From NCBI RefSeq assembly GCF_014638915.1, contig NZ_BMFQ01000001.1:124001-188000 (forward strand): DNA of 64,000 nt. Reading direction: 5' to 3'. The notes beneath the pieces were generated by a model. It was not told the origin of the DNA. It did no database searches and was given only the letters and a program-made list of their open reading frames with translations. Below are positions 14,653 through 49,868 of this stretch, one piece after another. Position numbers and translations under genes: made by a program. The stretch is from Xanthomarina arctica. Its GTDB lineage: Bacteria > Bacteroidota > Bacteroidia > Flavobacteriales > Flavobacteriaceae. Positions within the stretch are counted from its first letter, which is position 1; every line of letters begins with the position of its first letter.

Positions 14653-14678
14653 ATATTTTTTTTAACTTGTATTGTTAA

Positions 14679-14800
14679 AAAGAACTGTTTAAATTAAATT
14701 TTTACTATCAATAATAGCTCTGATTTCGCTGAATTTAAATAGCAAAATCATTAAAAATGCTTTTAAGCAGTTGGTAAAGTCCTAATTTAAACAGTTCTTT
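14679..14800. repeat. 122-bp element with perfect 18-bp terminal inverted repeats
   Basis: AAAGAACTGTTTAAATTA (14679-14696) is the exact reverse complement of 14783-14800. The 86-bp interior is AT-rich and has a small inner palindrome (GCTT-TT-AAGC). It fills the gap between etfA and the nuclease gene. It could be a MITE-like remnant or a long-range stem in the mRNA. No clear target-site duplication flanks it. Confidence 0.6.
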
Positions 14801-14815
14801 GTGTTTTAAAAATCT

Positions 14816-15430: not shown

Positions 15431-15447
15431 CTAACCTAAACTTACTC

Positions 15448-34275: not shown

Positions 34276-34605
34276 ATGAAAAAATTATTATTTAGTACTG
34301 TACTATTATTATGTTTAAGTTTAACTTTCACTTCTTGTAGAGACACAAAAGCTGAAGATGTAACTGAAGAAGCTACTGAAGATGCGGCTAACGCAATGGA
34401 AGATGCTGCTGATGCTATGGAAGACGCTGCTGATGCAACTGAAGAAGCTGCTGACAATGCTATGGATGCTGCACAAGATGCTGCTGATGCAACTGGAGAA
34501 GCTATTGAAAATGCTGCTGATGCAACTGGTGAAGCTGTAAAAGACGCTGCTCATGCAACTGAAAAAGCTGCAACTGATGCTGCTAATGCAGTTAAAGGTA
34601 ACTAA
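34276..34605 (+). CDS. alanine-rich lipoprotein with 7- and 11-residue helical repeats
   Basis: 109 residues. The signal peptide ends in a lipobox (LCLSLTFTSC), so it should be lipid-anchored. The rest is built almost wholly of Ala, Asp, Glu and Thr in tandem repeats: seven-residue units EDAANAM, EDAADAM, EDAADAT, then eleven-residue units DAADATGEAIE, NAADATGEAVK, DAAHATEKAAT. The pattern predicts a long amphipathic helix like those of LEA or apolipoprotein-type proteins. It has its own promoter and terminator. Function unknown. Open frames on the opposite strand here are repeat shadows. Confidence 0.82.
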   Translation: MKKLLFSTVLLLCLSLTFTSCRDTKAEDVTEEATEDAANAMEDAADAMEDAADATEEAADNAMDAAQDAADATGEAIENAADATGEAVKDAAHATEKAATDAANAVKGN

Positions 34606-34671: not shown

Positions 34672-34714
34672 TGACATATATCATAGCTTCTAGTTCTTTT
34701 TTTTAATAAATTTA
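34672..34714 (+). promoter_or_regulatory. FNR-like box and -7 element upstream of a stress-protein gene
   Basis: TGAC-ATAT-ATCA (34672-34683), a 23-nt gap, then TAAATTTA (34707-34714), one base off TAnnTTTG. One of seven promoters in the window with this exact geometry. Confidence 0.7.
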
Positions 34715-34734
34715 TGTTTCATAAACTTTACGCA

Positions 34735-35574
34735 ATGAAACAGATTCTATTATTAACAGACTTTTCTGCAAACTCTAAAAATGCTATTACTTATGCTTTA
34801 CAGCTATTTGAAAAGCAAGCATGTCACTTTTTAATCTTACACATTCCTACGAAATCTATTTATTCTACTAGCGATTTAATGACTATTGGAAATAACAGCA
34901 TTTACGATTCTTTAGTTAAAAAAGCTGAAAAAAAATTAGATAAATTTGTAAAAACTCTTGAAGCCACTTCAAATAATAAACATGCTACTTTTGAAGCGAT
35001 TGTAGATTATGATATGCTTACAGATTCTGTGAACCAAATAATAAAGTCTAAAAAAATTGATTTAATTGTCATGGGAACAAATGGCGTAACTGGAGCAAAA
35101 GAAGTTGTTTTTGGAAGTAACACTATAAATGTTATAAGAAAAGTAGCATGTACAACTCTAGTTATACCTAAAGGTTTTAAGTATAAAACCCCTAAAGAAC
35201 TATTTCTTCCATTAGACGTATATGACTCATTAAATAGCGAATCCTTTTTAAAATTAAAGAGATTCGCTAAAAAGTTCAATGCATCCTTTAACATTATGCG
35301 TATTATAGAAAATAGTGTGGTTTCTGAAACCGAAAAAACAGATCGAGAACACATAAATACACATCTTAACGACATAACTCACGCCTATCTTTTAGTAAAA
35401 AACATAAGATTAGATCAGGCTATTAACCAATATTTAGAAACCCATGAAAAAATGGACATGTTGACGCTACTTGTTCAGAAAGAATCTGCTTTCGAACGTT
35501 TCTTAACTGGTTCAGACACTAAAAAAATAAGTCAAAATTTAAAAGTCCCTTTGCTTATATTGCATAGCCAGTAA
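34735..35574 (+). CDS. universal stress protein, tandem two-domain (UspA family)
   Basis: 279 residues from the ATG at 34735 (MKQILLLTDFSANSKNAI), the start shared with the other three stress proteins here; an in-frame ATG seven codons earlier is rejected. The N-terminal Usp domain has the ATP-binding pattern G-2X-G-9X-G-S as MGTNGVTGAKEVVFGS. The C-terminal domain (from about residue 145) is divergent and lacks it. Cytoplasmic stress factor, probably ATP-binding. A putative FNR-like promoter lies upstream. It converges with the beta-CASP operon. Confidence 0.9.
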   Translation: MKQILLLTDFSANSKNAITYALQLFEKQACHFLILHIPTKSIYSTSDLMTIGNNSIYDSLVKKAEKKLDKFVKTLEATSNNKHATFEAIVDYDMLTDSVNQIIKSKKIDLIVMGTNGVTGAKEVVFGSNTINVIRKVACTTLVIPKGFKYKTPKELFLPLDVYDSLNSESFLKLKRFAKKFNASFNIMRIIENSVVSETEKTDREHINTHLNDITHAYLLVKNIRLDQAINQYLETHEKMDMLTLLVQKESAFERFLTGSDTKKISQNLKVPLLILHSQ

Positions 35575-35611
35575 TTTTATCAATTAAATATTCGATTTAG
35601 TTTAACTTCTT

Positions 35612-36985
35612 TTATAGTATAATTTCTTCAACATCCCATAATTTCGGGATTATTGCATTCCAGTTATAAGTGTCCTTTAATTTAACTCGAAAAGCATCTA
35701 AAGAATTAGGTTCGCCATGAATTAAAAAGACTTTTTCCGGAATGTTTTTTATCTCGCTAGTCCAGTCCAATAAATCTTTTTGATCTGCATGAGCAGATAA
35801 ACTCTCGATGTGTTTTACACTTGCTTTTACAGGATAATATTTTCCAAAGAATTTAATTTCGTGAGCTCCTTCCAATAATTGTCTACCTCGTGTACCTTCA
35901 GCTTGAAAACCAACCAATAAAACCGTTGTTGCAGTTTCATCTATAAGTTGTTGTAAATAGGTTAAAACCCTTCCTCCTGTTACCATACCGCTTCCAGCAA
36001 TAATTATTTTTGAACGTTTATCGTCTATGGTTTCCCAGGTTTCCTTGTAAGATTGAATGATATTGACGTGGTTGCACATGGCGTGATATTCTTCGTCTGA
36101 AAGTTTATGCCATTTTGGAAATTGATTAAAAACATCCAAAACGTTATTTCCCATAGGACTATCTATAAAAATGGGAATGTTAGGGATTTTATTTTTCTTA
36201 TATAATTTCCAAAGGATATACATTAAGGTTTGAAGCCTCTCTACAGCAAAACTTGGAATAATTAAGTTTCCTTTTTTATGAATGGTTTCCTTAATAATTT
36301 CAGAAAGTATGGTGTCGAGATCTTCTTCTGGGTGCAATTTATTTCCATAGGTACTTTCAATAAATAAAAAATCTGCCAATTCTGGTTTTTTGGGTTTATC
36401 TAACAAGTAATCGTTTACTCGCCCTATATCTCCAGAAAACACAAAACGCTTCCCTAAAATATCCAATTCAATAAAAGTCGCTCCAATAATATGTCCGTTA
36501 TATTGAAATCTATACGAGATGTTTTCTGTTAGTTTTATCCATTTATCGGCTACCTCTGGCTGAAACATTCTTATGGTTTTCTCTGCCTCACGGGCATTAT
36601 AAAATGGTAAGGCTGGATGATGTTTTGTATAATTTTCTTTGTTAGCTTTTTCCGCTTCTTCTTCGTGGATTTTTGCGCTATCCTCAAGAATAATTTTTGC
36701 AATGGCCAAAGTTGGAGCAGTACCTATTATATTACCATGAAACCCTTGTTTTACTAGTCTTGGTAAATAACCTACATGGTCTAGATGTCCATGGGTTAAT
36801 AAAACCACATCTATTTCTTCTACATCTACGGAGAGATTGCTCCAATTTAATTCCCGCAGTTCTTTAAGGCCTTGAAACATGCCACAATCAATCAAGATAT
36901 TTTTTTCTGATGTTTCTATTAAAAACTTGGAACCTGTTACGACGCCTGAAGCTCCCAAAAAATGAATTTTAACTATATTTTTCAT
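35612..36985 (-). CDS. beta-CASP metallo-beta-lactamase-fold RNA exonuclease-like protein
   Basis: 457 residues. Metal site LLTHGHLDHVGYLP, further MBL motifs in FSGDIGRVNDYL, and the beta-CASP domain with ESTYGNKLHP, IIAGSGMVTGGRVL and the late histidine motif ESLSAHADQKDLLDW. The family resembles CPSF-73/archaeal CPSF and acts on RNA. It is the last gene of a four-gene operon behind two stress proteins and the ATP-cone endonuclease, 3 bp after the latter. Confidence 0.9.
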   Translation of the reverse strand: MKNIVKIHFLGASGVVTGSKFLIETSEKNILIDCGMFQGLKELRELNWSNLSVDVEEIDVVLLTHGHLDHVGYLPRLVKQGFHGNIIGTAPTLAIAKIILEDSAKIHEEEAEKANKENYTKHHPALPFYNAREAEKTIRMFQPEVADKWIKLTENISYRFQYNGHIIGATFIELDILGKRFVFSGDIGRVNDYLLDKPKKPELADFLFIESTYGNKLHPEEDLDTILSEIIKETIHKKGNLIIPSFAVERLQTLMYILWKLYKKNKIPNIPIFIDSPMGNNVLDVFNQFPKWHKLSDEEYHAMCNHVNIIQSYKETWETIDDKRSKIIIAGSGMVTGGRVLTYLQQLIDETATTVLLVGFQAEGTRGRQLLEGAHEIKFFGKYYPVKASVKHIESLSAHADQKDLLDWTSEIKNIPEKVFLIHGEPNSLDAFRVKLKDTYNWNAIIPKLWDVEEIIL

Positions 36986-36988
36986 ATT

Positions 36989-37825
36989 TTAACTATCACA
37001 AAGTGGTTTAATTTCGTTTAGAATCTTTTCTTTTCTTACTTCTGAAATCCCTAAATGATCCAGATAAAAAGCATCTCCAATTAAATCTCTGCACAAAACG
37101 ACATCGCGACTTAACAGGAATTGTTTTTCTCTATTGGTAAGCAATGTCGAAACTGTTATTGGATACAAGCCGAGTCTATCTATTTTATTTTTTAAACCAT
37201 CCTCTTTGGGGTAATCCCAACTTAACAACTTTAAACCTATACATTTTCCATACTGAATCGCATCTTCAGTAAAACGAGTATTAGTTACAACCCAACCTTC
37301 ATTTAAGTTACTTTTATGAGGTTTAGAATCCCAATACTGTTTAACATCCTTAAACCTGGATGCGATATAAAGTGGTATTTTCACATTACAATTTCTGCCT
37401 TCTTCGTTATGAAATTTACATTCCACAATAGTTGTTTCTTCATTTTTATAGGCAACTACATCAATTTCATGTGTGACACAATGTCCCTGTAAAATTTTTC
37501 CAACCTCAGCACGGTAACCAGAATATGTAAAAATAGTGGCAACAAATTTCTCAAAAGGAAATCCTGTGGGGCCTAATTCATAAATGGCTTTTTTTAATTT
37601 GTATTTAGAAGCAAAATAAGTTTTCTTCTTTTTTAACAAGGCAAATGCTCTGTTATATATTTCTTTGGTTGAAATACCTTGATATAATTCGTCCCGAACC
37701 TTATTGATTATTTGGTTTACAAGTTCGTTGTCTGCTCCAGAATGGCTTAACGAAGTCCGTAATTTTTCTATTGAGAACTTCACTTTTTCACCAGACGTTT
37801 TTATGATTTCTATATTTGGATCCAT
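36989..37825 (-). CDS. ATP-cone domain fused to PD-(D/E)XK endonuclease-like domain
   Basis: 278 residues. Residues 4-90 look like an ATP-cone (IEIIKTSGEKVKFSIEKLRT through GISTKEIYNRAFALL), the nucleotide-sensing domain best known from ribonucleotide reductase and NrdR. Residues 90-200 resemble an Mrr-type restriction endonuclease fold with Asp122 and Glu135-x-Lys137 in TIVECKFH. The C-terminal 60 or so residues are helical. A nucleotide-gated nuclease is plausible but untested. It sits between stress-protein genes and the RNA nuclease gene, 27 bp after the stress-protein gene. Confidence 0.78.
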   Translation of the reverse strand: MDPNIEIIKTSGEKVKFSIEKLRTSLSHSGADNELVNQIINKVRDELYQGISTKEIYNRAFALLKKKKTYFASKYKLKKAIYELGPTGFPFEKFVATIFTYSGYRAEVGKILQGHCVTHEIDVVAYKNEETTIVECKFHNEEGRNCNVKIPLYIASRFKDVKQYWDSKPHKSNLNEGWVVTNTRFTEDAIQYGKCIGLKLLSWDYPKEDGLKNKIDRLGLYPITVSTLLTNREKQFLLSRDVVLCRDLIGDAFYLDHLGISEVRKEKILNEIKPLCDS

Positions 37826-37852
37826 AGGTTTTATTTAAAGTTTTCAAGAATT

Positions 37853-38719
37853 TTACATAGCAATTACACGTTTCTTTTTTGATTTGGCTGGAATAACTAA
37901 AAACGGAACGCTTAAATGAAAACCTATTTGGCTAATGGTAGATTTAAAAAATAAGTTTTCGAAAAATGAGTGTTTGTTGTTAATCATAACCAATAAATCT
38001 ATTTGTGTTTTTGACTGAAAATCTGAAATAGCTTTGGTTACTTCCTGACTTTTAACACTATGAAAATTTGTTGTGCAATCTTTCAATAGTGTTCCTAACT
38101 TCGTTCTATTACTCTCTTGCTCTTTGGTTAAATCTTTACCATAAGACACATTCAAAACATGTACTTTAGAATTCTGGTTTTTAGACAACTCAATAAGAGG
38201 CTTTACTTGTTTGTTTGTGTATTCTATTTCATAATCTGTAGGAAATAAAATATTTAGAGTAGTTTCAAATTTAAAATTATCAGGAATGGCCAAAACAGGA
38301 CATTTCACGTGTTTAAATACATGAACCGTATTAGAGCCAAACAAAACTTCTTTTGCACCAGTTGCTCCCTTGGTACCCATAACAACGTAATCTATTTGTT
38401 TTTCTTTTACCAATTCTTCAACTTCTAAATTAAGTGTATTGAAAACTGCATTTGAATCAAAAGCATGTTTAGGATTATTGAAGGTTTCTTGAATTTTCTT
38501 TTCAATAAGCTTTAAACTTTCTACAGCTTGGTCCCGAACTATATTTGCCAAATCCAATTGTGAAGGACTTAACGCAACATATCCTGCATCATATACAATA
38601 GGTGTGTAAGTGTGTACCAAATAAAATATGCATATATCGTCTTTAAATAGTTGCAATGCATAGGAAATAGCATTCCATGAGTTTTCCGAAAAATCTGTTG
38701 GTAATAGTATTTTTTTCAT
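37853..38719 (-). CDS. universal stress protein, tandem two-domain
   Basis: 288 residues, MKKILLPTDFSENSWNAISY at the start. The N-terminal domain keeps the ATP motif MGTKGATGAKEVLFGS; the C-terminal domain (from about 150) lacks it. Second gene of the operon starting at 39582, 14 bp after the first. The basic C-terminus (PAKSKKKRVIAM) is unusual among the four paralogues. Confidence 0.92.
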   Translation of the reverse strand: MKKILLPTDFSENSWNAISYALQLFKDDICIFYLVHTYTPIVYDAGYVALSPSQLDLANIVRDQAVESLKLIEKKIQETFNNPKHAFDSNAVFNTLNLEVEELVKEKQIDYVVMGTKGATGAKEVLFGSNTVHVFKHVKCPVLAIPDNFKFETTLNILFPTDYEIEYTNKQVKPLIELSKNQNSKVHVLNVSYGKDLTKEQESNRTKLGTLLKDCTTNFHSVKSQEVTKAISDFQSKTQIDLLVMINNKHSFFENLFFKSTISQIGFHLSVPFLVIPAKSKKKRVIAM

Positions 38720-38733
38720 AATTATATTTTTAA

Positions 38734-39582
38734 TTAAATACGTTTAATATTCTGTAAGACTAGAAAAGGAATTTCTATATGCAAACTAATTTTAGAAACA
38801 GTAGATTCAAACAAAATATCCTCTAAAAACGATTGTCTGGTATTTACCATAACTAGCATGTCTACCTTTTTACTTTTTAAATAATTTAAAATAGTGTTTT
38901 TGACATCTTTTTGTTTAATAAATGTAAAATTAATTTGATTTTTACACAGCTCATTTTTAATAAACATCTTGTTATCTTCTTGACGCATAGATAGTTTATT
39001 AGAAGTCGAAATATAAACCATATCAATCATGGCTTTAAAAGAATAGGCCATTTCACAAATCAATTTTAACTCCCTTCTTTTATTAGGAATTATATAATTT
39101 GTTGGAAACAATATGTTTTGAGGTTGTACATATTTATAATTTTCCGGAATGGCCAAAACAGGGCATTGCACATATTTTAAAACTTGTAATGTATGAGATC
39201 CAAAGCTTACATGCCTGTCGTTTGTCTCACCTTTGGTTCCCATAACAATAATATCTATATTTTCTTTATCCACGATTCTATCTGTTTCATCCACAAGAAT
39301 ACTGTTAGATGAAATAATATGATATTCGTGTCTCGGATTAGGCGAAATTTTCTTAACCTGTTTTAAAATGTTTTCTAATTTTTCAACTGAATTATTATGA
39401 ACAGTTTTAGTTACAGAATCCAGCTTTTCCCTATGTAATAAAGATTCATCGTTATAAATCTCATCTTGATATGCATGCATGATATAAAATTTACTGATAT
39501 CGTACTTAAAAAGCTCTAAGGCATATTTTACAGCATTCATGGCGTTATCTGAAAAATCTGTAGGAATCAATATTTTTCTCAT
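38734..39582 (-). CDS. universal stress protein, tandem two-domain
   Basis: 282 residues beginning MRKILIPTDFSDNAMNAVKY. The ATP-binding pattern is intact as MGTKGETNDRHVSFGS. The C-terminal half is divergent. First gene of the operon usp-usp-ATP-cone nuclease-beta-CASP nuclease, with a perfectly palindromic FNR-like box 55 nt upstream (39637-39648). Confidence 0.92.
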   Translation of the reverse strand: MRKILIPTDFSDNAMNAVKYALELFKYDISKFYIMHAYQDEIYNDESLLHREKLDSVTKTVHNNSVEKLENILKQVKKISPNPRHEYHIISSNSILVDETDRIVDKENIDIIVMGTKGETNDRHVSFGSHTLQVLKYVQCPVLAIPENYKYVQPQNILFPTNYIIPNKRRELKLICEMAYSFKAMIDMVYISTSNKLSMRQEDNKMFIKNELCKNQINFTFIKQKDVKNTILNYLKSKKVDMLVMVNTRQSFLEDILFESTVSKISLHIEIPFLVLQNIKRI

Positions 39583-39605
39583 GACAATTCTTTTAGTATT
39601 AGGAC

Positions 39606-39648
39606 TAAAACTAATGTTTAGTTAAAGGAAAAACTATGATAATTATCA
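39606..39648 (-). promoter_or_regulatory. FNR-like box and -7 element of the four-gene stress operon
   Basis: Perfect palindrome TGAT-AATT-ATCA (39637-39648), a 23-nt gap, then minus-strand TAGTTTTA (39606-39613). The start codon is 23 nt downstream. Confidence 0.75.
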
Positions 39649-39670
39649 GAAGAAGCTACTTTATAAAACA

Positions 39671-39699
39671 AAAGCGAGAAAGTTTAACTTTCTCGCTTT
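39671..39699 (-). terminator. strong terminator hairpin in the 567-bp gene-free region
   Basis: AAAGCGAGAAAGTT (39671-39684) and AACTTTCTCGCTTT (39686-39699) are exact complements. On the minus strand it is followed by TTTTGTTTTA. No annotated gene ends here, so it marks the end of an unrecognised minus-strand transcript. Confidence 0.85.
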
Positions 39700-39856
39700 T
39701 TTAAGAATTCGACAGTATTAAATAACTCTTTTTAAATTTGAACCACCTTTAAATCAATAAAGACTTCTTAAATAAAGTTAAACAACAACTAAGGAATTCA
39801 ATTTTGATTATGTACTTTAACACAATAACCTTTAACCATATAAACACTATATTTAT
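39671..39856 (-). ncRNA. candidate small RNA or short-peptide transcript 2
   Basis: Predicted minus-strand transcript of about 186 nt. The start is placed 12 nt inside the -7 element TACTTTTA at 39861-39868, which follows an FNR-like box. The end is the perfect terminator stem at 39671-39699. No gene of usual length lies inside; a 13-codon frame at 39798-39839 (MVKGYCVKVHNQN) starts about 17 nt from the predicted transcript start. Whether the product is RNA or peptide is open. Boundaries are predictions. Confidence 0.5.
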
Positions 39857-39860
39857 AAGG

Positions 39861-39903
39861 TAAAAGTAAACCATATTTAAGGGGTGAAAAATGATATTTA
39901 TCA
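39861..39903 (-). promoter_or_regulatory. FNR-like box and -7 element of candidate small transcript 2
   Basis: TGAT-ATTT-ATCA (39892-39903), a 23-nt gap, then minus-strand TACTTTTA (39861-39868). There is no conventional gene directly downstream. Confidence 0.65.
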
Positions 39904-39923
39904 GCTTTAGACCTAAAAGAAGA

Positions 39924-39950
39924 AAAGCCAGAAATATAATTCCTGGCTTT
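39924..39950 (-). terminator. terminator-like hairpin after candidate small transcript 1
   Basis: Arms AAAGCCAGAAAT (39924-39935) and ATTCCTGGCTTT (39939-39950) pair at 11 of 12 positions. On the minus strand it is followed by TCTTCTTTT, a modest U-rich tail. Confidence 0.65.
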
Positions 39951-40076
39951 ACTCGATTAATAGCTTAAATCTAAAAATGGTTCCTCAATCATTGTTAGAT
40001 TTATTTTCAATTCTATCTTAAGTAGATAGTTTCAAAAGATAAATACTTCTTGTAAAAGAACTATCGTTTTATTTAC
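39924..40076 (-). ncRNA. candidate small RNA or short-peptide transcript 1
   Basis: Predicted minus-strand transcript of about 153 nt, from 12 nt inside the -7 element at 40081-40088 to the hairpin at 39924-39950. An 11-codon frame (MIEEPFLDLSY, 39957-39992) ends 7 bp before the hairpin. It has the same layout as candidate transcript 2 (FNR-like box, 23 nt, -7, short transcript, terminator), in tandem. Boundaries are predictions. Confidence 0.5.
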
Positions 40077-40080
40077 ATTA

Positions 40081-40123
40081 CTAAGATATAACGAAATTAA
40101 AATACTTAAAATGATAACTATCA
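40081..40123 (-). promoter_or_regulatory. FNR-like box and -7 element of candidate small transcript 1
   Basis: TGAT-AACT-ATCA (40112-40123), a 23-nt gap, then minus-strand TATCTTAG (40081-40088). It lies 26 bp past the stop of the gene at 40150, so it cannot serve that gene. Confidence 0.65.
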
Positions 40124-40149
40124 GGTTTAGTGTTTTTCACAGCAAAAAT

Positions 40150-40536
40150 CTAGTAAGGCACAATATTGTAGGCTATATTTAAAAGAAAAACACCTATAAT
40201 AAAAAGTAACATATAAATTAGTTGAACAAATTTTACATTTATTACATTAAGCCTTTTAACAGTTTGTTTTGGAAAACTAAACAAGGCTAAACCTTCTAAG
40301 AGAGCCATCCAGCCAATTAAGGTAATAATAAGTTTCCAGTTTGCTTCCCAAACATTGTGTAATAAAATATTTATTAAACCAACAATAATGGCAATAAATG
40401 AAACGATAATCAAGAATTTTTCATCTTTTAAATCGTTAAAAATCTGTTTGATTCTTCTTGGATTAAAGCTTAATATTATAAAAAAAACTAGTAAATACCA
40501 ACCCCAAAATTTAGCTAATAGAATAGAAATATCCAT
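40150..40536 (-). CDS. small four-helix membrane protein, unknown function
   Basis: 128 residues with four hydrophobic spans (WGWYLLVFFIILSF; FLIIVSFIAIIVGLINILL; KLIITLIGWMALLEGLALF; LIYMLLFIIGVFLLNIAY). No known motif recognised. It lies 12 bp after the stress-protein gene at 40549 on the same strand and should share its FNR-like promoter, so it may be a membrane partner in the same response. Confidence 0.75.
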   Translation of the reverse strand: MDISILLAKFWGWYLLVFFIILSFNPRRIKQIFNDLKDEKFLIIVSFIAIIVGLINILLHNVWEANWKLIITLIGWMALLEGLALFSFPKQTVKRLNVINVKFVQLIYMLLFIIGVFLLNIAYNIVPY

Positions 40537-40548
40537 AATTATTTATTT

Positions 40549-41391
40549 TTAATTGTGAAGCACCAAAAACGGAATGTTTATATGGTAGCTTATTTCCTCC
40601 ACCTTTGAATGGAATAAAATTTGCTGAAAATAATTCAAGTTTTTGGCTACCATTATCATCAAGTCTATGTCTCTGCTTTCCGCAAATTCCTGGACTGCAA
40701 CTTCAATGTTTTTATTGGTTAAGAAATGAAAGCTATGACTATTTGCATGAAAATAATCTTCAAGCAACTCTTTATTTTTTATTTGATCCCTATTTAAATT
40801 AGCTGTTTTTTTACTAATATGAACAACTCTCAAGGATGCCTCGTTATCCTGAATAATTTTTAAAATAGGTTCTAAAGTATTGATGCTATATTGCATCGAG
40901 AAATCTGTTGGAAAAGCTATTTCTTTAATTTTAGAATAAGTAGCCAATTCTGGTACCATTAAAGTTGCACATGGTACCTTGGTAATAATGTCCCCTGTGT
41001 TACTACCAATAATTGTTTTTCGTAACCCCGAAGCACCTTTGGTACCCATAACAATAAGATCGATGTTTTTCTCTTCAACATGTTCTCTAATAGATTCTAC
41101 AAAAAAATTATAATCGGAAATGGTATAAAACGTATGTTTTTTATTTTGAATCTTGCAGGTTGCTATTCGATTTAACAACGCATTTAATTGTGCTTTAGCA
41201 GGTTTTGTATAAATGGATTCTATAATATCTTCAGTAGGCAAATAAGGTGAATCACTTAAAACAACATTGCCTAATCTATTGACATGTAGTAAAAAAAAAT
41301 TACAAGCGATATTCTCGTGAAAATCCAAAGCAAACTTTATGGCATTCCATGAGTTTTCTGAAAAATCTGTTGGCAATAAAACATTTTTCAT
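40549..41391 (-). CDS. universal stress protein, tandem two-domain
   Basis: 280 residues beginning MKNVLLPTDFSENSWNAIKF. The ATP motif in the first domain is intact (MGTKGASGLRKTIIGS); the second domain is divergent. First gene of a two-gene operon with the small membrane protein. Its promoter has an FNR-like box and a perfect -7 element (41411-41453). Confidence 0.92.
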   Translation of the reverse strand: MKNVLLPTDFSENSWNAIKFALDFHENIACNFFLLHVNRLGNVVLSDSPYLPTEDIIESIYTKPAKAQLNALLNRIATCKIQNKKHTFYTISDYNFFVESIREHVEEKNIDLIVMGTKGASGLRKTIIGSNTGDIITKVPCATLMVPELATYSKIKEIAFPTDFSMQYSINTLEPILKIIQDNEASLRVVHISKKTANLNRDQIKNKELLEDYFHANSHSFHFLTNKNIEVAVQEFAESRDIDLMIMVAKNLNYFQQILFHSKVEEISYHINIPFLVLHN

Positions 41392-41410
41392 TTTTTAATA
41401 ACTTAAAACT

Positions 41411-41453
41411 CAAAAGTAAGTCGAGAAAGCACCTTATAAAATGATATAAATCA
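41411..41453 (-). promoter_or_regulatory. FNR-like box and perfect -7 element of a stress-protein operon
   Basis: TGAT-ATAA-ATCA (41442-41453), a 23-nt gap, then minus-strand TACTTTTG (41411-41418), a perfect TAnnTTTG. The best example of the class. Confidence 0.78.
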
Positions 41454-41474
41454 TATTGCCATGAATCTAATTGC

Positions 41475-42524
41475 TTAATAAATATCTTTAAGTCGCTCCA
41501 AATCTAGAATTCTAATATTTCTTCCTTCAATTTCAATAAGACCTTGCTTTTTAAAATGGGTCATGGTTCTAATTAAGGTTTCGGTAGCAATTCCAGCGAC
41601 ACTTGCTAAATCGTTTCTTGAAATTCTAATAGGTTCGTCCGGTTTTCTATTTAATTTTTCTGAAAATTTTATTATTGTTTGAGCTGTTTTTTGATTTACA
41701 GATCCATAAGCCATTTGCAATAACTGCTCTTTCACGTTAAACAGATTGTCTGTTAGTAATTGAATTAATTCTAGGGCAACATGATGATTATTTTCTAAAA
41801 CTTCTTTTAAAATGTTTTTAGAAACACTCACCAAAGTGGTTTCCTTAACTGCTGTGGCAGATTCTTGATAAGGGATATTTTGGATGAATGAGGTATAACC
41901 AAATAAATCATCTTCTTTATAAAGTGATGTAATAAGCTCTTTGCCTTTTTCGTCTAGATTATGACATTTTACAATGCCTTGGTTTATTAAAAAAATAGCA
42001 TTGGAATGTTCGCCTTGTCTATAGATAACATCTCCTTCGGAAAAATGAATGATATCTCCATTATCGTCCAAAAAGTTTTTTAAATCATTTAAGGTTTTTA
42101 ATTCAGATTCATTATCGTTGGCCAGCTTACTGCTATTTTTCGCCTCTTTTAAGATTGAAGCTTTTGCTATCCTACTTTCTATTGCGCTTATTAAATCGAT
42201 TTCATTATAAGGTTTTGATAAATAATCGTCGGCGCCCAAATTCATGCCTTTTCTAACATCTTGTTGTTCGGTTTTTGCCGATAAATAAATAAAGGGAATC
42301 TGATTTGTTTCTGGATTTTTTGAAAGCTCATCTAACACGCCATATCCATCCAATTCTGGCATCATAATATCACAAATAATAATGTCAGGCAAATGCTTTT
42401 TTGTCATTAAAACTCCTAATTTACCATTCGAAGCTGTTAAAACCTTATAATTTGAAAGCTCTAATAACTCTGCTGTATTTTCTCGTAAAACAATATCGTC
42501 TTCAATTAATAATATGGTTCTCAT
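41475..42524 (-). CDS. response regulator with receiver plus CRP/FNR-type DNA-binding module
   Basis: 349 residues. Residues 1-120 are a receiver domain with acidic pocket LLIEDD, phospho-acceptor Asp52 in IIICDIMMPELDG and the conserved Lys in DYLSKPYNE. About 150-270 is a cyclic-nucleotide-binding-like barrel (HFSEGDVIYRQGEHSNAIFL), and about 285-349 a CRP-type winged helix. The recognition helix has ATETLIRTM, keeping the Glu and Arg that contact GA in CRP and FNR half-sites. Only two cysteines are present (51 and one in VKCHN), so there are no FNR-type iron-sulfur ligands. It lies 47 bp after the sensor kinase gene. Confidence 0.93.
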   Translation of the reverse strand: MRTILLIEDDIVLRENTAELLELSNYKVLTASNGKLGVLMTKKHLPDIIICDIMMPELDGYGVLDELSKNPETNQIPFIYLSAKTEQQDVRKGMNLGADDYLSKPYNEIDLISAIESRIAKASILKEAKNSSKLANDNESELKTLNDLKNFLDDNGDIIHFSEGDVIYRQGEHSNAIFLINQGIVKCHNLDEKGKELITSLYKEDDLFGYTSFIQNIPYQESATAVKETTLVSVSKNILKEVLENNHHVALELIQLLTDNLFNVKEQLLQMAYGSVNQKTAQTIIKFSEKLNRKPDEPIRISRNDLASVAGIATETLIRTMTHFKKQGLIEIEGRNIRILDLERLKDIY

Positions 42525-42571
42525 TTGGTGTTATTTAGTGTTTTTTTTTCCAAACTATAGATTCTTAATAA

Positions 42572-45007
42572 TTAAAACATGGATGTTTCATTACTGGGTT
42601 TATTTGGTAAAGTAATTGTAAAGGTACTTCCTATGTGTTCTTGGCTTCTAAAGACTAAGGTACCACCTAAATTCTCAATATGGTTTTTAACAATATTTAA
42701 ACCAATTCCTGTACCTTGAATAGTCAATACATTTTCTGCTCTAAAATAACGATTAAAAATGTTTTTTTGATCTGCTTCTGGAATACCAATACCCTGATCT
42801 TTAATTTTAAAAACCGTTTGGTTTTTCTTTTGGGATATCTTAATTTCAATATGCCCATTTTCTGGTGAATATTTAATAGCATTATGAATGATATTGGATA
42901 AAGTGAGCTCTAATATTTTTTCATCTTGATGCAAGGACAATTCATCTATGTTCTCCGGATATTTAATTTTCTGACCATCCTTTAATAACATGTTCGAGTT
43001 GTATATAACTTCATTAAGCACGGAACTTAGTTTAAAGGTTTTAAAATGATATGTTACTTTTCCCGCATCCAATTTCTCAACCGAAAGAAAATCATTTAAA
43101 ATGTTATTTAAATTATTAACAATATTGCTAATAGTATTAATATGCTTATCTCGTTTATCTTGCTGTTCCTCAAAATGATATTTTTTCAATAGCATGGCCG
43201 AGGTAAGAATACCACTTAAAGGCGTTTTAAACTCATGTGACACTAAAGATAAAAACTTTGTTTTCAACTCGTTTAGCTCTATTTCTTTTTTTAACGCTAT
43301 TTTCAATTCTTTGGTTTGCTCCGCAACTTGTTCTTTTAAATCTTTAGCATGACTTTCTAGTTGAAATTGAGTTTTCTCTATATACTTGTTTGTTAGATGT
43401 TTTTCAATTGCAATTCCTGCTAGTTTGACACCAACCTCAACTACTTGTTTGTTAAGGTTTTTGAATTCTCGTTCTTCTTTTCTATAAATGGCAAATGTTC
43501 CTAAAACGACATTTTTAGATGACAGAATTGGAATAGACCAACAAGATTTTAAGCCAAGTGGTAAAACCAAATGCTTAAAATTCTGCCAATATTCATGGGT
43601 TTCAATATTTGAAACAACCAACTCTTTTTCCAGAAACATATTTGTGCCACTAGTGTCTAAATGTTCACCAATTAGCTCACTATTTATGTTGTTCGAATAA
43701 GCTTCTGGTAAACTTGGAGCAACTAAGCTTTTCAGTTTTTGCTCCTCTTGATCCAATAATAAAACAGACATAAAAACATCTTCAAATTGGTCTTCAATTA
43801 AAAAAGCAATATCCCTTAAAATAGTTTTTAAAGGCGTGTCCAATACCATTAATTCTAGTATCTGATTTTGTTTAATTTTAAAAAGTTCCTGTCTCTTTCT
43901 TTCCGTTATATCCAAAATTATGGCTACAAAAACTTCTTTGTCCTGTAAATTAGACAATTGCAAATGGACCTCAACGGGATAAGTACTACCATTTTTACGT
44001 TGATGTATCGTTTCGAAATTTAGTTTCTCTACACGTTTTCCTAATAAAATATCTATTTCCTTTTTAAAACCATCCACGCTGTAATCTGGCTTGATATCGA
44101 CAGGAGTCATTTGTTTTAACTCGTCCATAGAATAACCTAGGTTTTTTACAGCGCCATAATTAGCACTTAAAAACAATAAACTACTTGAGTCAAAGACAAA
44201 AATCTCGTTTAAAGACTCGTCTAAAATGGTAGCTAGATGTGTTTGGTTTTCCTCTGCTAATTTACGTTGGGTAATATCATTTTGAATCCCGATATAATGG
44301 GTAATTATGGCTTCATTATTTTTTATGGGAGTCAAGTGAAGTTCATTCCAGAACATGTTACCATTTTTTTTGTAATTACGTAAAACAGCATGACAGCTTT
44401 TGCCTTTGCTCAAGGCATTTTTAATTTTATCTATACTTTTTTGGTCTTTATCGTCTGCTTGTAAAAACCTGCAGTTTTTGTTAAGAATTTCATCTTGAGA
44501 ATAGCCGGAAATTTTTTCAAAAGCTTCATTGGCATAAATAATGGGATGATCTTTTTGCAAGGCATCTGTTATAACAATACCATTACTCGCATATTGCAAG
44601 GCTTTACTTTTTATATTTAAATTCTTTTCTATTTCTACACGTTTGGAAATATCTATTACCAAAGCCATAACATAAGCTTTGTTTTTTATTGTAAACGGAT
44701 TTAATCCAACTTCTAGAGGAAATGTGTTACCATCCTTTTTTATACCATAAAGAACCCTATCCATTCCCATAGCACGTTTTTCTCCATTTTCAAAAAATTT
44801 CTTATAATATGTTGTATGGTCTTTATGAAAGTTTTTTGGGATTAAAGTGTCAAGCGACTTATTTAAAAGTTCCCCTTCTAAATAACCAAACATTAATTCT
44901 GTAGCAGAATTTAATGAGACTATCTCTTGGTTTTCATCCACAATTACTATCCCTTCTGAAATAGCTTCAGAAAGGATTTGAAAAATCTCTTGGTTATTTT
45001 TTAACAT
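42572..45007 (-). CDS. LOV/PAS-containing hybrid-sensor histidine kinase
   Basis: 811 residues, apparently soluble with no clear membrane span. Order: PAS (8-122); LOV domain (about 135-250) with the flavin-cysteine motif NCRFLQ (Cys179), FWNEL and GIQNDIT; a third PAS (about 255-372); GAF (about 380-535); coiled coil; HisKA with SLVSHEFKTPLSGI (His591); HATPase with N-box NIIHNAIKYS and DQGIGIP. The LOV residues needed for a blue-light flavin photocycle (the Cys, Asn in WNEL, Gln in GIQ) are present. It should phosphorylate the regulator encoded directly downstream. It has no C-terminal receiver of its own. Confidence 0.92.
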   Translation of the reverse strand: MLKNNQEIFQILSEAISEGIVIVDENQEIVSLNSATELMFGYLEGELLNKSLDTLIPKNFHKDHTTYYKKFFENGEKRAMGMDRVLYGIKKDGNTFPLEVGLNPFTIKNKAYVMALVIDISKRVEIEKNLNIKSKALQYASNGIVITDALQKDHPIIYANEAFEKISGYSQDEILNKNCRFLQADDKDQKSIDKIKNALSKGKSCHAVLRNYKKNGNMFWNELHLTPIKNNEAIITHYIGIQNDITQRKLAEENQTHLATILDESLNEIFVFDSSSLLFLSANYGAVKNLGYSMDELKQMTPVDIKPDYSVDGFKKEIDILLGKRVEKLNFETIHQRKNGSTYPVEVHLQLSNLQDKEVFVAIILDITERKRQELFKIKQNQILELMVLDTPLKTILRDIAFLIEDQFEDVFMSVLLLDQEEQKLKSLVAPSLPEAYSNNINSELIGEHLDTSGTNMFLEKELVVSNIETHEYWQNFKHLVLPLGLKSCWSIPILSSKNVVLGTFAIYRKEEREFKNLNKQVVEVGVKLAGIAIEKHLTNKYIEKTQFQLESHAKDLKEQVAEQTKELKIALKKEIELNELKTKFLSLVSHEFKTPLSGILTSAMLLKKYHFEEQQDKRDKHINTISNIVNNLNNILNDFLSVEKLDAGKVTYHFKTFKLSSVLNEVIYNSNMLLKDGQKIKYPENIDELSLHQDEKILELTLSNIIHNAIKYSPENGHIEIKISQKKNQTVFKIKDQGIGIPEADQKNIFNRYFRAENVLTIQGTGIGLNIVKNHIENLGGTLVFRSQEHIGSTFTITLPNKPSNETSMF

Positions 45008-45082
45008 ACGTTATTTAGAATAGGTATTAAACTTTTAAAGTTAGTTGTTTTTTTATAGAATGGATGAAATTTCAAGCCTAAA

Positions 45083-45125
45083 CAAATGTTAGATTTTAGT
45101 TAAAAGGTGAGTCTGAGCAATATCA
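45083..45125 (-). promoter_or_regulatory. FNR-like box and -7 element upstream of the LOV kinase operon
   Basis: TGAG-CAAT-ATCA (45114-45125), one base off the palindrome, then a 23-nt gap and minus-strand AACATTTG (45083-45090), one base off TAnnTTTG. The box also lies upstream of the divergent gene at 45181, where a weaker TAATTTG begins 23 nt away on the plus strand. Confidence 0.55.
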
Positions 45126-45180
45126 TTTCATATCATTTTTTCTATCTTTAATTTGTTTAAATAATTCTAATCTTAGTATT

Positions 45181-45591
45181 ATGAAAAACAAAAAACATTT
45201 AAACGTTCCATTTTATGAAATTCTCGGCAAACTTTTTTATGCTATTGCAGCCATAGATGGTGCAATTAAACCCGTGGAATTTAATAAACTAAAAGAAATT
45301 ATAAAAACCCAATGGTTAGATGAAACAGAAGATAATTTCCAAACTGATGCTATTTACCAGATTGAGGTTGTTTTTAATTGGCTAAATGTGCAAAACAACT
45401 TAAATAGTGAGGCATTATTTAAAGACTTTGTAGAATATAAAAACGAGCATAATCATTTTTTTACTCCTCCTATTAAGAAATTGATAATAAAAACGGCACA
45501 TGGCATTGCAGATAGCTTTTGTAGAAAAAACAAATCTGAACTTATTTTGCTTGCTAAATTAGATATGGAATTAAAAAAAACAAATGATTAA
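45181..45591 (+). CDS. hypothetical helical protein, TerB-like
   Basis: 136 residues, all-helical in appearance, with FYEILGKLFYAIAAIDGAIK and an acidic pattern like tellurite-resistance TerB or related DUF domains. No membrane span. It is followed after 5 bp by the MscS channel gene, so it probably heads a three-gene operon, divergent from the LOV kinase. Family assignment is weak. Confidence 0.65.
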   Translation: MKNKKHLNVPFYEILGKLFYAIAAIDGAIKPVEFNKLKEIIKTQWLDETEDNFQTDAIYQIEVVFNWLNVQNNLNSEALFKDFVEYKNEHNHFFTPPIKKLIIKTAHGIADSFCRKNKSELILLAKLDMELKKTND

Positions 45592-45596
45592 CCTAA

Positions 45597-46496
45597 ATGA
45601 ACCAAATTAAAAACTGGATTCTAGAAAATCCTACAATTTATAGTATTGCAAAATTTGTTCTAATTGCCACATTTGTACTGGTTATAATTCAATTTTTAAG
45701 ACGCTTTTTAAGAAAAAGCATTTCAAACACAACGGCACGTTATAAATCTCAAAAAACCGTGGAATTTGTAGGTTATGTGCTGTTAGTTATTTTATCCTTT
45801 TCTTATTTTACAGGAAACATCAAGGACTTTACTTTAGCTATTGGGTTGTTTTCTGCAGGTGTTGCTTTTACACTTCAAGAGTTAATTTTAAGCATTGCAG
45901 GATCTATTTATATTTTTGTAGTTAATGTCTATAAACCTGGAGATAGAATTGAAATTAATGGTATAAAAGGAGATGTTATTGATGTAGATAGCATGTACAC
46001 AACCATGATGGAAATTGGACAATGGGTTTCTAGCGATAATTACAGTGGTAGAATTGTAAAATTAAGCAATGCTTTTGTTTTTAAAGGTCCTATTTACAAC
46101 TACTCTCAGGACTTTCCTTTTATTTGGGACGAATTTAATTTACCCATAAAATACGGTTCAGACATAGAATTAGCAAAATCTTTAGTGATTGACATTGCAT
46201 CAAAAACACTCTCTGAGTTCACTGCTAATTCCAAAGCACAATGGAAAGAGGTCGTGAACAAATATTATATAGAAGACGCTATTGTAGAACCAACCCTAGC
46301 CATTACATTAACAGATAATTGGGTTCAGTTTAATTTAAGGTATATTGTAGATTATAAAAAACGAAGGGTTACAAAACACGAATTAAACGACAGCATCAGG
46401 AAAGCTTTTGAAGGCACAAACGGCAAAGTAGTTTTAGCTTCAACAACCATAGAGCTTGTTAAAATTCCTGAAATAAAAGTCGATATCAATCCATAA
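45597..46496 (+). CDS. MscS-family mechanosensitive ion channel
   Basis: 299 residues. Membrane spans at about 17-36, 57-72 and 78-105; the pore-lining helix has the Gly/Ala pattern FSAGVAFTLQELILSIAGSI. The beta domain follows as VNVYKPGDRIEINGIKGDVI. The channel would open on hypo-osmotic shock. It lies between the TerB-like and metallophosphoesterase genes. Confidence 0.9.
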   Translation: MNQIKNWILENPTIYSIAKFVLIATFVLVIIQFLRRFLRKSISNTTARYKSQKTVEFVGYVLLVILSFSYFTGNIKDFTLAIGLFSAGVAFTLQELILSIAGSIYIFVVNVYKPGDRIEINGIKGDVIDVDSMYTTMMEIGQWVSSDNYSGRIVKLSNAFVFKGPIYNYSQDFPFIWDEFNLPIKYGSDIELAKSLVIDIASKTLSEFTANSKAQWKEVVNKYYIEDAIVEPTLAITLTDNWVQFNLRYIVDYKKRRVTKHELNDSIRKAFEGTNGKVVLASTTIELVKIPEIKVDINP

Positions 46497-46514
46497 AAAA
46501 CAGTATTATAATTT

Positions 46515-47732
46515 ATGAAAAGCTATTCATTTTTCACCATTTCACTCCTATGTTTGGCCATTTTTATAGTTGATTTTTTAGCATTTTATTGGTTAATATC
46601 TATTACGGACCTCATTCCTTCTTCCTTTTTAAAGTACACTATTTACATTCTATTTTGGTTTTTCACACTGGGTTTAATAGGATCTATTATGGTATTAAAA
46701 ATAAGGTTAGACGACATACAACCTAGAAGAAAGCAGTTGCTTATTTCTTCATTATATGGCTTAACAATTTCGTCTTTTATTCCTAAAATTATTTTTGTAG
46801 TTGTAATGGCCATCCTCTTTTTTACCAATTATGTATTTTCCGAAAAGGAATCTCATATTGTTATTCCACTTATTGGATTATTTGCTGGCTTTTTACCATT
46901 TTTCGCGATTGCTTATGGTATTTTTAAAGCTAGATACAACTTCAAAGTACACCATATAAACTTAACTTACAATCATTTACCAGAGGCGTTCCATGGCTTA
47001 AAAGTGGTGCAGATTTCCGACTTACATTTAGGAAGTTTCAATCATAATTTTCAAATTCTTGAACGAGCTATAAAAAAAATCAATCAGTTAGAACCAGATT
47101 TCTTGTTTTTCACAGGAGACCTTGTAAACAACTTTGCTTGGGAATTACGTGGTTGGCGAAAAGCCTTCAGACATTTTTCACCCAACATAAAAAAATATGC
47201 CGTTTTAGGAAATCATGATTATGGCGATTATAGCAAATGGGATTCTAAAGAAGCAAAGCAAGAAAATTTTGAAGCCATCAGGACCTTTTATAAAGAAAAC
47301 GATTTCAATCTCATGATGAACGAGTCCGAAATCATTGAAAGAAAAGGCGAAAAAATTGCCATTATTGGTGTAGAAAATTGGGGTAATCCACCCTTTAAAC
47401 AATATGGAGATTTACAAAAAGCATTGAAAGACTCAAAAGATGTTTCGTTTAAAATCCTCCTCTCTCACGATCCTTCACATTGGCCTGAAGAAGTTATAGA
47501 GCAAACCGATATTGCCTTAACCCTTTCTGGACACACACATGGCATGCAAGCAGGTTTCAAAATTAAAAATAAAGAATGGAGCCCTATAAAATATAAATAC
47601 AAGCACTGGGCAGGATTATACAAACAAAACAACCAATATCTATATGTAAATCGAGGTTTAGGTTGGCTTGGTTTTCCTGGTAGGTTAGGTATGCGCCCTG
47701 AGATTACGCTTATAGAATTTCAAAAAGAATAA
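46515..47732 (+). CDS. membrane-anchored metallophosphoesterase (YkuE-like)
   Basis: 405 residues. About four N-terminal spans (to residue 145), then a calcineurin-like phosphoesterase with the full metal-ligand set: VVQISDLHLG, FFTGDLVNN, VLGNHDYGD, LLSHDPSHW and LSGHTHGMQ. The substrate may be a lipid or nucleotide. Last gene of the operon that starts at 45181. Confidence 0.9.
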   Translation: MKSYSFFTISLLCLAIFIVDFLAFYWLISITDLIPSSFLKYTIYILFWFFTLGLIGSIMVLKIRLDDIQPRRKQLLISSLYGLTISSFIPKIIFVVVMAILFFTNYVFSEKESHIVIPLIGLFAGFLPFFAIAYGIFKARYNFKVHHINLTYNHLPEAFHGLKVVQISDLHLGSFNHNFQILERAIKKINQLEPDFLFFTGDLVNNFAWELRGWRKAFRHFSPNIKKYAVLGNHDYGDYSKWDSKEAKQENFEAIRTFYKENDFNLMMNESEIIERKGEKIAIIGVENWGNPPFKQYGDLQKALKDSKDVSFKILLSHDPSHWPEEVIEQTDIALTLSGHTHGMQAGFKIKNKEWSPIKYKYKHWAGLYKQNNQYLYVNRGLGWLGFPGRLGMRPEITLIEFQKE

Positions 47733-47742
47733 ATTTTCAAAC

Positions 47743-47785
47743 TGATTTATGTCATAAACTTAAACCCCAAAATGTCTTAAGTTAG
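47743..47785 (+). promoter_or_regulatory. FNR-like box and -7 element upstream of the flavoprotein/DnaJ operon
   Basis: TGAT-TTAT-GTCA (47743-47754), a 23-nt gap, then TAAGTTAG (47778-47785), one base off TAnnTTTG. The start codon at 47829 is 43 nt downstream. Confidence 0.65.
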
Positions 47786-47828: not shown

Positions 47829-48284
47829 ATGATAACTACTTTAGAAACTAAGGAATGTCAGTATATACTAAGTAATAATTACATTGGTCATTTAGGATAC
47901 ATCTTCCAAAACAAACCATATGTCGTTCCAATAACCTATTTTTATGATGAAAAAGAAAATCACATCATTTGTTATTCTGGGGAAGGACATAAAATTCAAG
48001 CCATGAGAAAAAATAACCAGGTGTCTATTCAGGTTTCTGAAATAGAATCTGTAAATAACTGGAAATCTGTTTTGGCTCATGGCACATTTCATCTATATTT
48101 TGGTAGTGAAGCAAGAGCTTACCTACATGAATTTTCATTAGGTGTAAAAAGTGTTATTACAGAAAAAGAACATCAGACAGTTAATTTTATAAGCGAATTT
48201 TCAAGTAAAATTTATAAAGACGAAACGCCATTTGTGTTTATAATTAAAGTAACAGAAGTAACTGGCAAAAAAAGAATTCACTAA
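47829..48284 (+). CDS. pyridoxamine-phosphate-oxidase-like flavin-binding protein
   Basis: 151 residues with the split-barrel fold of FMN-binding PNPOx-like proteins: GHLGYIFQNKPYVVPITYFY and CYSGEGHKIQAMRKNNQVSI. Members include heme- or F420-linked and nitroimidazole-resistance (NimA-like) proteins; the exact activity is unknown. First of four tightly spaced genes. Confidence 0.82.
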   Translation: MITTLETKECQYILSNNYIGHLGYIFQNKPYVVPITYFYDEKENHIICYSGEGHKIQAMRKNNQVSIQVSEIESVNNWKSVLAHGTFHLYFGSEARAYLHEFSLGVKSVITEKEHQTVNFISEFSSKIYKDETPFVFIIKVTEVTGKKRIH

Positions 48285-48301
48285 AAATATTATACTTTAT
48301 A

Positions 48302-48667
48302 ATGGGAGAAATAGCCACATCAGACAAACAAATAACTTTGTTCTACAGTTCTAACTCTACAAGAGCCAAGCAAACTTTAGCCTATGCAAAAGCAGAAGGT
48401 TTGCCAATTTTAGAGGTAGATATTTTAAAAACTAAGCTTACAGGAACTCAAATAGCAGAATTGGCAGACAAACTTAACATAGAAATCAAAGATTTGGTTA
48501 ATCAGGAACATCCTTCATATACTCAAAAATTTGAACCTCATGATTTCTCTGAAAACGATTGGCTAACTATGATTCAGCACAATCCTGAAATCATGAAACA
48601 ACCCATTGCTTTGCGAGGCAACAGGTCTATTTTAATCGAGACGCCAACTGATATTATTAAAATTTAA
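48302..48667 (+). CDS. ArsC/Spx-family thioredoxin-like protein lacking the catalytic cysteine
   Basis: 121 residues. The ArsC-like fold is suggested by [20 protein letters not shown] and the late arginine-containing [17 protein letters not shown]. The usual CxxC or Cys-x5-Arg site is replaced by NSTRAKQT, and there is no cysteine anywhere in the protein. It cannot be an arsenate reductase; a binding or regulatory role as in Spx/MgsR relatives is possible. Second gene of the FNR-box operon. Confidence 0.75.
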
Positions 48668-48678
48668 AACACCTTAAA

Positions 48679-49569: not shown

Positions 49570-49868
49570 TTATGGAAAAAGAAAATTTAATATCAATTCA
49601 AGAATTTTGTGTCATTTATAAAGTTCCAGAAACTTTTATAAACTCGTTATATGATTACGAGCTTATTGAGATTGTAACCACAGAAAACACCCAATTTGTA
49701 CAAATAACGCAAATTAAAAACATTGAGAAACTCATTCGGTTTCATTTTGAAATGGACATTAATTTAGAAGGTATTCATGCCATTTCAAATTTACTTAATA
49801 AGGTAGAAAATCTTCAAGACGAAATAAATAACCTCAATAATAAAATAGATTTTTACCAGGCAGAATAA
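49566..49868 (+). CDS. cbpM: chaperone modulator CbpM-like (MerR-fold) protein
   Basis: 100 residues; ATGs at 49566 and 49572 are both possible, the first overlapping the end of cbpA. It has the MerR-like N-terminal helix-turn-helix ([20 protein letters not shown]) and C-terminal helix of CbpM proteins, which bind and inhibit CbpA-type J domains. Position and size agree with the family. Confidence 0.82.

Follow-up and report, generated by a model that had tools for sequence, protein, structure and literature searches.

Organization of the locus

The region analysed is a 64,000-nt stretch of the Xanthomarina arctica genome (GCF_014638915.1, contig NZ_BMFQ01000001.1, positions 124,001-188,000), hereafter the window, and all coordinates are window-based. 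An earlier sequence-only reading had described seven FNR-like boxes at 34672, 39637, 39892, 40112, 41442, 45114 and 47743, each followed at exactly 23 nt by a -7 element. Both the positions and the spacing are borne out: with the gap taken as the number of nucleotides between box and -7 octamer, it is 23 throughout, and every octamer matches TAnnTTTG at five or six of its six fixed bases. Four boxes (39637, 39892, 40112 and 41442) are exact copies of TGATN4ATCA, and the other three carry one mismatch, of which 34672 and 47743 fit TGAYN4RTCA. The -7 elements have the form of Bacteroidota primary sigma promoters (TAnnTTTG at -7), a consensus reported for Flavobacterium psychrophilum (PMC9723704). 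We put at roughly 0.75 the probability that these are class II operators and form an FNR-like regulon with two readers, whose predicted members are stress proteins and two candidate small RNAs, S1 and S2.

Three of the boxes precede genes that we take, from their sequences, to encode universal stress proteins (USPs). On the plus strand, box TGACATATATCA (34672-34683), with -7 element TAAATTTA at 34707-34714 and a predicted +1 near 34719, lies upstream of a USP gene at 34735-35574; the open reading frame (ORF) is listed from 34714, and its MKQ start at 34735 falls 16 nt past the predicted +1. USP relatives in three sister species of the genus (G003, G004 and G005) also stand behind a gap-23 box, 90-113 nt from the predicted +1. 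On the minus strand, box TGATAATTATCA (39637-39648; -7 TAGTTTTA at 39613-39606) is upstream of a USP gene at 38734-39582, which is followed by a second at 37853-38719, and box TGATTTATATCA (41442-41453; -7 TACTTTTG at 41418-41411, 6/6) is upstream of the USP gene at 40549-41391. The latter adjoins a minus-strand gene (41475-42524) for a regulator with REC, cNMP-binding and Crp-type HTH domains by Pfam and the recognition helix ATETLIR, here called REC-CRP, beside which a histidine kinase with PAS domains, one of them LOV-like, and a GAF domain (Pfam) is encoded at 42572-45007 (minus strand). Two further minus-strand boxes, TGATAAATATCA (39892-39903; -7 TACTTTTA at 39868-39861) and TGATAGTTATCA (40112-40123; -7 TATCTTAG at 40088-40081), form the predicted promoters of S1 and S2, respectively. 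Box TGATTTATGTCA on the plus strand (47743-47754; -7 TAAGTTAG at 47778-47785; predicted +1 near 47790) precedes a gene run at 47829-49868 for a Pyridox_ox_2 flavoprotein, an ArsC/Spx-like protein (below curated cut-offs), a presumably DnaJ-like protein and a MerR_2 (CbpM-like) protein. Relatives of the flavoprotein gene lie behind a box in the same-genus genome G006 (L111) and in L096.

The remaining box, TGATATTGCTCA (45114-45125, minus strand; -7 AACATTTG at 45090-45083), may serve either the kinase/regulator operon or the opposite gene at 45181-45591 (plus strand), whose 136 aa product has no Pfam match and is presumably a TerB-like protein. It is the weakest of the seven: its palindrome is broken, the distance from box to AACATT in the three sister species is 22, 23 and 23 nt with -7 scores of 4, 4 and 5 of 6, and in other genera the box of this intergenic region points to the opposite gene in eight loci versus the kinase gene in one. 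Relatives of the 136 aa protein are found behind a gap-23 box in 8 of the 24 loci listed.

The spacing exceeds chance expectation

Boxes were counted under three rules (exact TGATN4ATCA, the same with at most one mismatch, and TGAYN4RTCA), and -7 octamers were scored by their matches to the six fixed bases, a score of at least 5/6 being called good and 4/6 lax. In the shuffle comparison proposed with the sequence-only reading, run here on the window with 60 dinucleotide shuffles, gap-23 boxes with a good -7 element proved far commoner than in shuffled sequence: four exact boxes against a mean of 0.017 (maximum 1), and nine with at most one mismatch against a mean of 1.07 (maximum 3). Seven of these nine are the boxes described above; the extra sites, 9156 (minus strand) and 35781 (plus strand), were judged to be chance, being about as many as the shuffles yield. 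TGAYN4RTCA occurs six times at gap 23 and at most twice at any other gap. A generic sigma-70-type promoter scan was of no use in the window (73 found, shuffle mean 71.9).

There is next to no chance that the pattern is merely a product of AT-rich DNA. Each of its parts is common alone, one-mismatch palindromes are numerous across the window, and one-mismatch boxes with a lax -7 element number 11, inside the shuffle range (mean 7.2, maximum 16), so that the excess in the window rests on good -7 matches. A chance origin is contradicted by the strict-rule shuffles and by the off-gap counts in the window, in the sampled part of the genome and in 20 other genera.

Beyond the window, 792 kb of the same genome in 40 stretches (~20% of the genome) contain five gap-23 sites versus zero to three at each other gap, and the element thus extends past the cluster. 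The genes at these outside sites resemble CcoI, CcoS, a Dps protein and two others, and the cbb3-oxidase-like genes under the element adjoin the gene for a cysteine-bearing FNR homolog; these Cco, cbb3 and Dps labels are ones that we presume from sequence. The proposed local regulon stands as a stress-gene regulon beside its regulator, which recurs in other genera, and is not only local, given the five further sites. With six gap-23 TGAYN4RTCA sites within 13 kb, the cluster in the window is exceptionally dense compared with the rest of the sampled genome.

A fixed element in 20 other genera

We then compared 19 kb around one REC-CRP ortholog in each of 20 genomes, every one from a different other genus of the family, picked from the better-scoring of 66 genomes with a REC-CRP match among 149 searched. 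These loci contain 104 TGAYN4RTCA boxes with a good -7 element at gap 23, versus one to eight at each of the other 39 gaps tested (5-44). When N4 was replaced by N2, N3, N5, N6, N7 or N8 at a matched centre, 0, 1, 1, 0, 3 and 0 sites were found. Gap 23 is the sole peak, as expected of the fixed distance between box and core promoter in class II Crp/Fnr activation. An ORF of at least 60 codons lies downstream of 92 of the 104 sites at a median of 19 nt from the predicted +1, and 86 of the 92 start 10-39 nt past it; nine sites in seven loci lead into terminator-ended units with no ORF in between, and three into neither. The proposed class II position, with the box centred at about -41.5, holds because so many sites precede an ORF at such short distances, and the gap-23 peak agrees with it.

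The USP gene adjoining REC-CRP lies behind a gap-23 box in 19 of the 20 loci, all but L102, and USP genes are the commonest identified targets of the element. Relatives of the 136 aa protein, the Pyridox_ox_2 protein and DnaJ are also boxed (BLAST), as are genes for HSP20, MlaE, patatin, YceI, CcoN/FixO, a metal ATPase, HemN and a copper nitrite reductase. CcoN/FixO, HemN and the nitrite reductase place low-oxygen genes of relatives under the same element, as in an FNR regulon. The E. coli FNR consensus is TTGAT-N4-ATCAA; across the 104 sites its core is present and its outer bases are not, since the box is followed by T in 97% of them and preceded by A or C in 92%.

Three of these loci carry arrangements of their own. 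In L106, the copper nitrite reductase gene (14523-15965), whose product carries a cytochrome c domain at its C terminus, lies behind a gap-23 box near the REC-CRP ortholog; this hints at a connection with nitrite or nitric oxide. The box at 8410 (plus strand) in L092, with its -7 element at gap 23, has neither an ORF nor a recognised terminator downstream and lies 76 nt from the opposite box at 8334 of a terminator-ended unit. In L104, two overlapping boxes (16725, plus strand, and 16736, minus strand), each with a -7 element at gap 23, separate a metal-ATPase-like ORF from a gene for an FNR-like protein with N-terminal cysteines, which suggests that the element also controls the cysteine FNR.

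Two probable readers of the box

REC-CRP at 41475 has an N-terminal REC domain and two cysteines (51 and 187), and no N-terminal cysteine cluster. Residues 134-259 of the neighbouring kinase resemble YtvA blue-light receptors, below the cut-off of that model, and its LOV-like PAS domain has NCRFLQ, which we take to be the LOV motif. This genome has 11 HTH_Crp_2 matches, 10 of them over the family cut-off. Among the proteins compared is the cysteine-bearing FNR homolog (L047), which has an N-terminal C-x2-C, is encoded beside the cbb3-like genes and has the recognition helix TATESAIR, similar to ATETLIR of REC-CRP and to TATETAIR of a second REC-CRP. The gene for this second paralog (G000:C2:891902-892954) encodes a protein with 37% identity, whose recognition helix is similar enough that it may also bind the operator.

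The sequence-only reading had assigned the boxes to the regulator at 41475. Genomes that lack the cysteine FNR keep boxes near REC-CRP, in line with that assignment, and genomes that lack REC-CRP carry the box on some USP genes, which the assignment does not cover. For the latter, 18 genomes without a REC-CRP match at E<=1e-60 returned 30 USP loci of 43 matches. Ten of the 30 have a gap-23 box upstream with a -7 score of at least 5/6, all in genomes holding the cysteine FNR; nine of these boxes lie 58-72 nt before the match, and the one in L164, at 323 nt, may serve another gene. Two more loci have a box with a -7 score of 4/6. Among genomes with neither regulator, G030 has one USP locus and no box, and G011, G017 and G027 have no USP match.

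One alternative, which we consider unlikely, is that the genome-wide cysteine FNR alone reads these boxes and REC-CRP is a bystander with other targets. In its favour, FNR was found in 31 of the 39 chosen genomes, and the same box and gap occur both at the cbb3-like genes beside FNR and on some USP genes of REC-CRP-less genomes. Eight genomes lack FNR at E<=1e-50, however, and the four of them that have REC-CRP (G175, G158, G188 and G046) keep 7, 9, 7 and 3 gap-23 sites beside it, versus 16, 10, 14 and 1 summed over the 39 other gaps. Moreover, the only other Crp-type protein found in G046 has an unlike helix, as do the two others over the cut-off in G188, although a fourth in G188 (L225), below the family cut-off, has the helix SRETLSR.

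We consider REC-CRP at 41475 to be probably one of two readers. Some evidence tells against this account. A Glu/Arg-like helix also occurs in other Crp-type proteins of the FNR-less genomes, namely L220 (G175), L221 (G158) and L225 (G188), and REC-CRP is therefore the sole candidate in G046 alone, with its three sites; this survey could have missed Crp-type proteins with a divergent HTH. Furthermore, a box at 5/6 is missing from 20 of the 30 USP loci in the genomes without REC-CRP. The simplest account of these distributions, which fall short of proving it, would be a single operator read by both REC-CRP and the cysteine FNR.

Two candidate small RNAs between the stress genes

Two units had been described as apparently gene-free. 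No long ORF indeed follows the boxes at 39892 and 40112, and their terminators and conservation make small RNA genes, both of them terminator-ended, the most likely reading. S1 (39663-39856, minus strand; ~194 nt) has a 5' stretch and a terminator conserved in the three sister species, and the terminator scan identified an intrinsic-terminator-like hairpin of 14 pairs at 39670-39700 on the minus strand. S2 (39919-40076, minus strand; ~158 nt) comprises a hairpin with a G-rich loop, a GCUAUUAAUC motif and a terminator, the corresponding hairpin of 12 pairs lying at 39924-39950 on the same strand. In silico, both units have what marks a small RNA gene: a promoter of their own, an intrinsic terminator and no conserved ORF. 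Both units are conserved in sister species G003, G004 and G005, along with their hairpins and the three boxes of this stretch. Of these nine boxes, eight show gap 23 under the one-mismatch TGAT rule, and the remaining one, which precedes S2 in G003, shows it under the TGAY rule. In G006, an S2-like unit lies behind a box, divergent to the Pyridox_ox_2 relative. The S1 hairpin comes close to a perfect palindrome and is flanked on either side by T-rich DNA, so that it may stop transcription from both directions.

The case for small RNA genes is weakened on several counts. S1 is represented by only four sequences, which lend its internal fold little support; the same-genus genomes G001, G002 and G007 yielded no S1/S2 locus in the DNA search; and by our own reading, this genome, G003 and G004 contain short ORFs, 9-13 codons long in S1 and 11 in S2. 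The last point would fit S1 and S2 encoding tiny peptides, which we hold to be very improbable, with the S1 start codon lost in G005 and the hairpin spacing of the S2 family varying by steps that are not multiples of three.

S1 and S2 might instead be attenuated 5' leaders of the downstream USP gene. They are arranged head to tail upstream of it, and in other genera five of the nine terminator-ended units have a USP gene as their next ORF, at 161-504 nt from the predicted +1. L101 (8341) also has a similar unit ahead of a USP gene, but was classed as neither because its hairpin failed the T-run rule. The L096 unit has its hairpin in a short leader and may be such a leader, since an ORF is just 87 nt away. 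Yet a separate box and -7 element stand before the USP gene, past the last terminator, in the window and in the three sister species. In L105 the gene that follows the two units, 515 and 844 nt away, is of another kind, the unit in L100 precedes an oppositely directed ORF with a USP gene only then at 1686 nt, and relatives of S2 adjoin LytTR genes in other surroundings. A leader role for S1 and S2 thus seems improbable, and we retain free-standing small RNAs as the preferred reading.

An Rfam scan of the window at the gathering threshold gave two tRNAs and no other match. No clear sequence homology of S1 to the terminator-ended units of other genera was found. DNA matches L006-L012 and L016 (E 4.5e-5 to 8.6e-4) were taken as unrelated, L006, L007, L008 and L016 being the ones read, and L013-L015 are opposite-strand matches inside S1/S2 loci already counted.

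Candidate RNA S2 belongs to a family mostly found beside LytTR genes

A first model of S2, R1, was rejected for picking up generic terminators, with matches in 173 of 299 genomes at E<=0.01; it gave five matches in this genome, and the one examined besides S2 (C3:421826) is a mere terminator hairpin. Reading 28 R1 loci (L019-L046) left seven taken as real relatives and used for a second model, R2, which was built from an alignment of 12 S2-like sequences itself fitted to R1. In this alignment 95.1% of cells are paired, and two-sided changes occur in 8 of 21 core pairs, a level reached in 0 of 500 shuffles. Against a conserved fold across S2, six of the eight two-sided pairs sit in the terminator helix and the alignment had been fitted to R1.

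R2 matches 21 of 397 family genomes at E<=1e-7; these 21 represent 15 genera, and nine of them supplied training sequences while 12 are new. Three of the 22 places (G000, G003 and G133) have an FNR-like box with a gap-23 -7 element; 17 have at least one upstream ACCAACTATACA-like repeat, in 15 cases as a pair 21 bp apart, and two have neither, among them L241, which is probably spurious. In the five repeat-type loci examined, the RNA is divergent from a response regulator gene, and the one tested encodes a LytTR protein. G133 carries both box-type and repeat-type loci. In the genus of the window, a diverged S2 relative lies behind a repeat pair at the LytTR place in all eight genomes searched, with R2 E-values of only 0.001-0.04. 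The S2-family pattern matches 27 stretches, among them ones from Gelidibacter, Psychroserpens, Aquaticitalea and Ichthyenterobacterium, and none of 10 S2-family loci matched Rfam at E<=1.

The RNA of which S2 is a paralog otherwise lies mostly next to a LytTR regulator, so that the RNA module appears to be under two different inputs. One could picture a single Flavobacteriaceae small-RNA module that has come under two unrelated signalling routes, more commonly a neighbouring LytTR two-component system and, after duplication, an FNR-like operator read by REC-CRP (with its light-sensing kinase) and the cysteine FNR, the tandem RNAs forming a relay upstream of the stress genes of the window; to this wider picture we give even odds.

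Proposed mechanism

Boxes, spacing, conservation, terminators and covariation were computed in silico; binding, signals, phosphorylation, transcription and the function and targets of the RNAs are what we infer from them. A dimeric Crp/Fnr-family activator would bind TGAT-N4-ATCA centred near -41.5 and recruit RNA polymerase to the Bacteroidota -7 element 23 nt away, with a start ~47 nt from the beginning of the box. The signal would be low oxygen, through the cysteine FNR, or whatever the PAS/LOV-like kinase senses, through the adjacent REC-CRP, which this kinase of its own operon probably phosphorylates. The predicted output comprises the universal stress proteins, the flavoprotein/Spx-like/DnaJ gene run and the RNAs S1 and S2, which would be two independent terminator-ended transcripts stacked upstream of a USP gene. 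As a guess, S2 could use its G-rich loop to base-pair with mRNA leaders that are rich in C.

Relation to known systems

Known counterparts include the FNR class II promoters of E. coli, the FNR-activated small RNA FnrS of enterobacteria, and the LytTR-driven RNAs of the AgrA-RNAIII and VirR-VR-RNA systems. The promoters described here share with those of E. coli FNR the TGAT-N4-ATCA core, the predicted -41.5 centre and, in relatives, low-oxygen targets. They differ in the outer base of TTGAT/ATCAA, in the Bacteroidota -7 element, in one likely reader that has a REC domain and no cysteine cluster, and in USP genes as the commonest identified targets. Like FnrS, S1 and S2 are predicted small RNAs with their own FNR-type promoter and an intrinsic terminator; unlike FnrS, they are two in tandem, and relatives of S2 have no Rfam match. 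With their paired repeats (21 bp apart) and a LytTR-type response regulator as neighbour, the S2 relatives recall AgrA-RNAIII and VirR-VR-RNA, from which they differ in their Bacteroidota host and in the FNR-like box of S2 itself. Rfp18 of F. psychrophilum is likewise a conserved structured small RNA of flavobacteria, in an organism with TAnnTTTG promoters (PMC9723704); the 27 S2-pattern stretches include no F. psychrophilum record.

The mechanism would thus be of a known kind, class II Crp/Fnr activation with an FNR-driven small RNA. Within the literature searched, the occurrence of a fixed-gap element across many genera of this family, the evidence for two readers and the RNAs outside Rfam appear to be new: a search of titles and abstract openings, with subscription papers mostly outside its scope, returned nothing on these RNAs, on this operator or on a REC-CRP/LOV regulon. 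Descriptions of how flavobacteria tie gene control to oxygen and light seem to be few. A motif of fixed geometry would allow the regulon to be predicted from sequence in many genera, the possible sharing of one operator by two regulators offers a testable case, and the candidate small RNAs come with a ready-made promoter to test.

Additional observations

A small-RNA-like unit, conserved in L272-L276 and L277-L285, lies behind ACCAACTATACA-like repeats, which mostly form a pair 21 bp apart, and divergent from a LytTR-type response regulator gene; it has the look of a separate RNA under LytTR control. Genes that we take to encode ribonucleotide reductase-like proteins lie downstream of it in four of the five loci from L272 to L276. 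In the window, the upstream neighbour of box 34672 is a lipoprotein-like ORF (34276-34605) built of repeated Ala/Asp/Glu-rich units.

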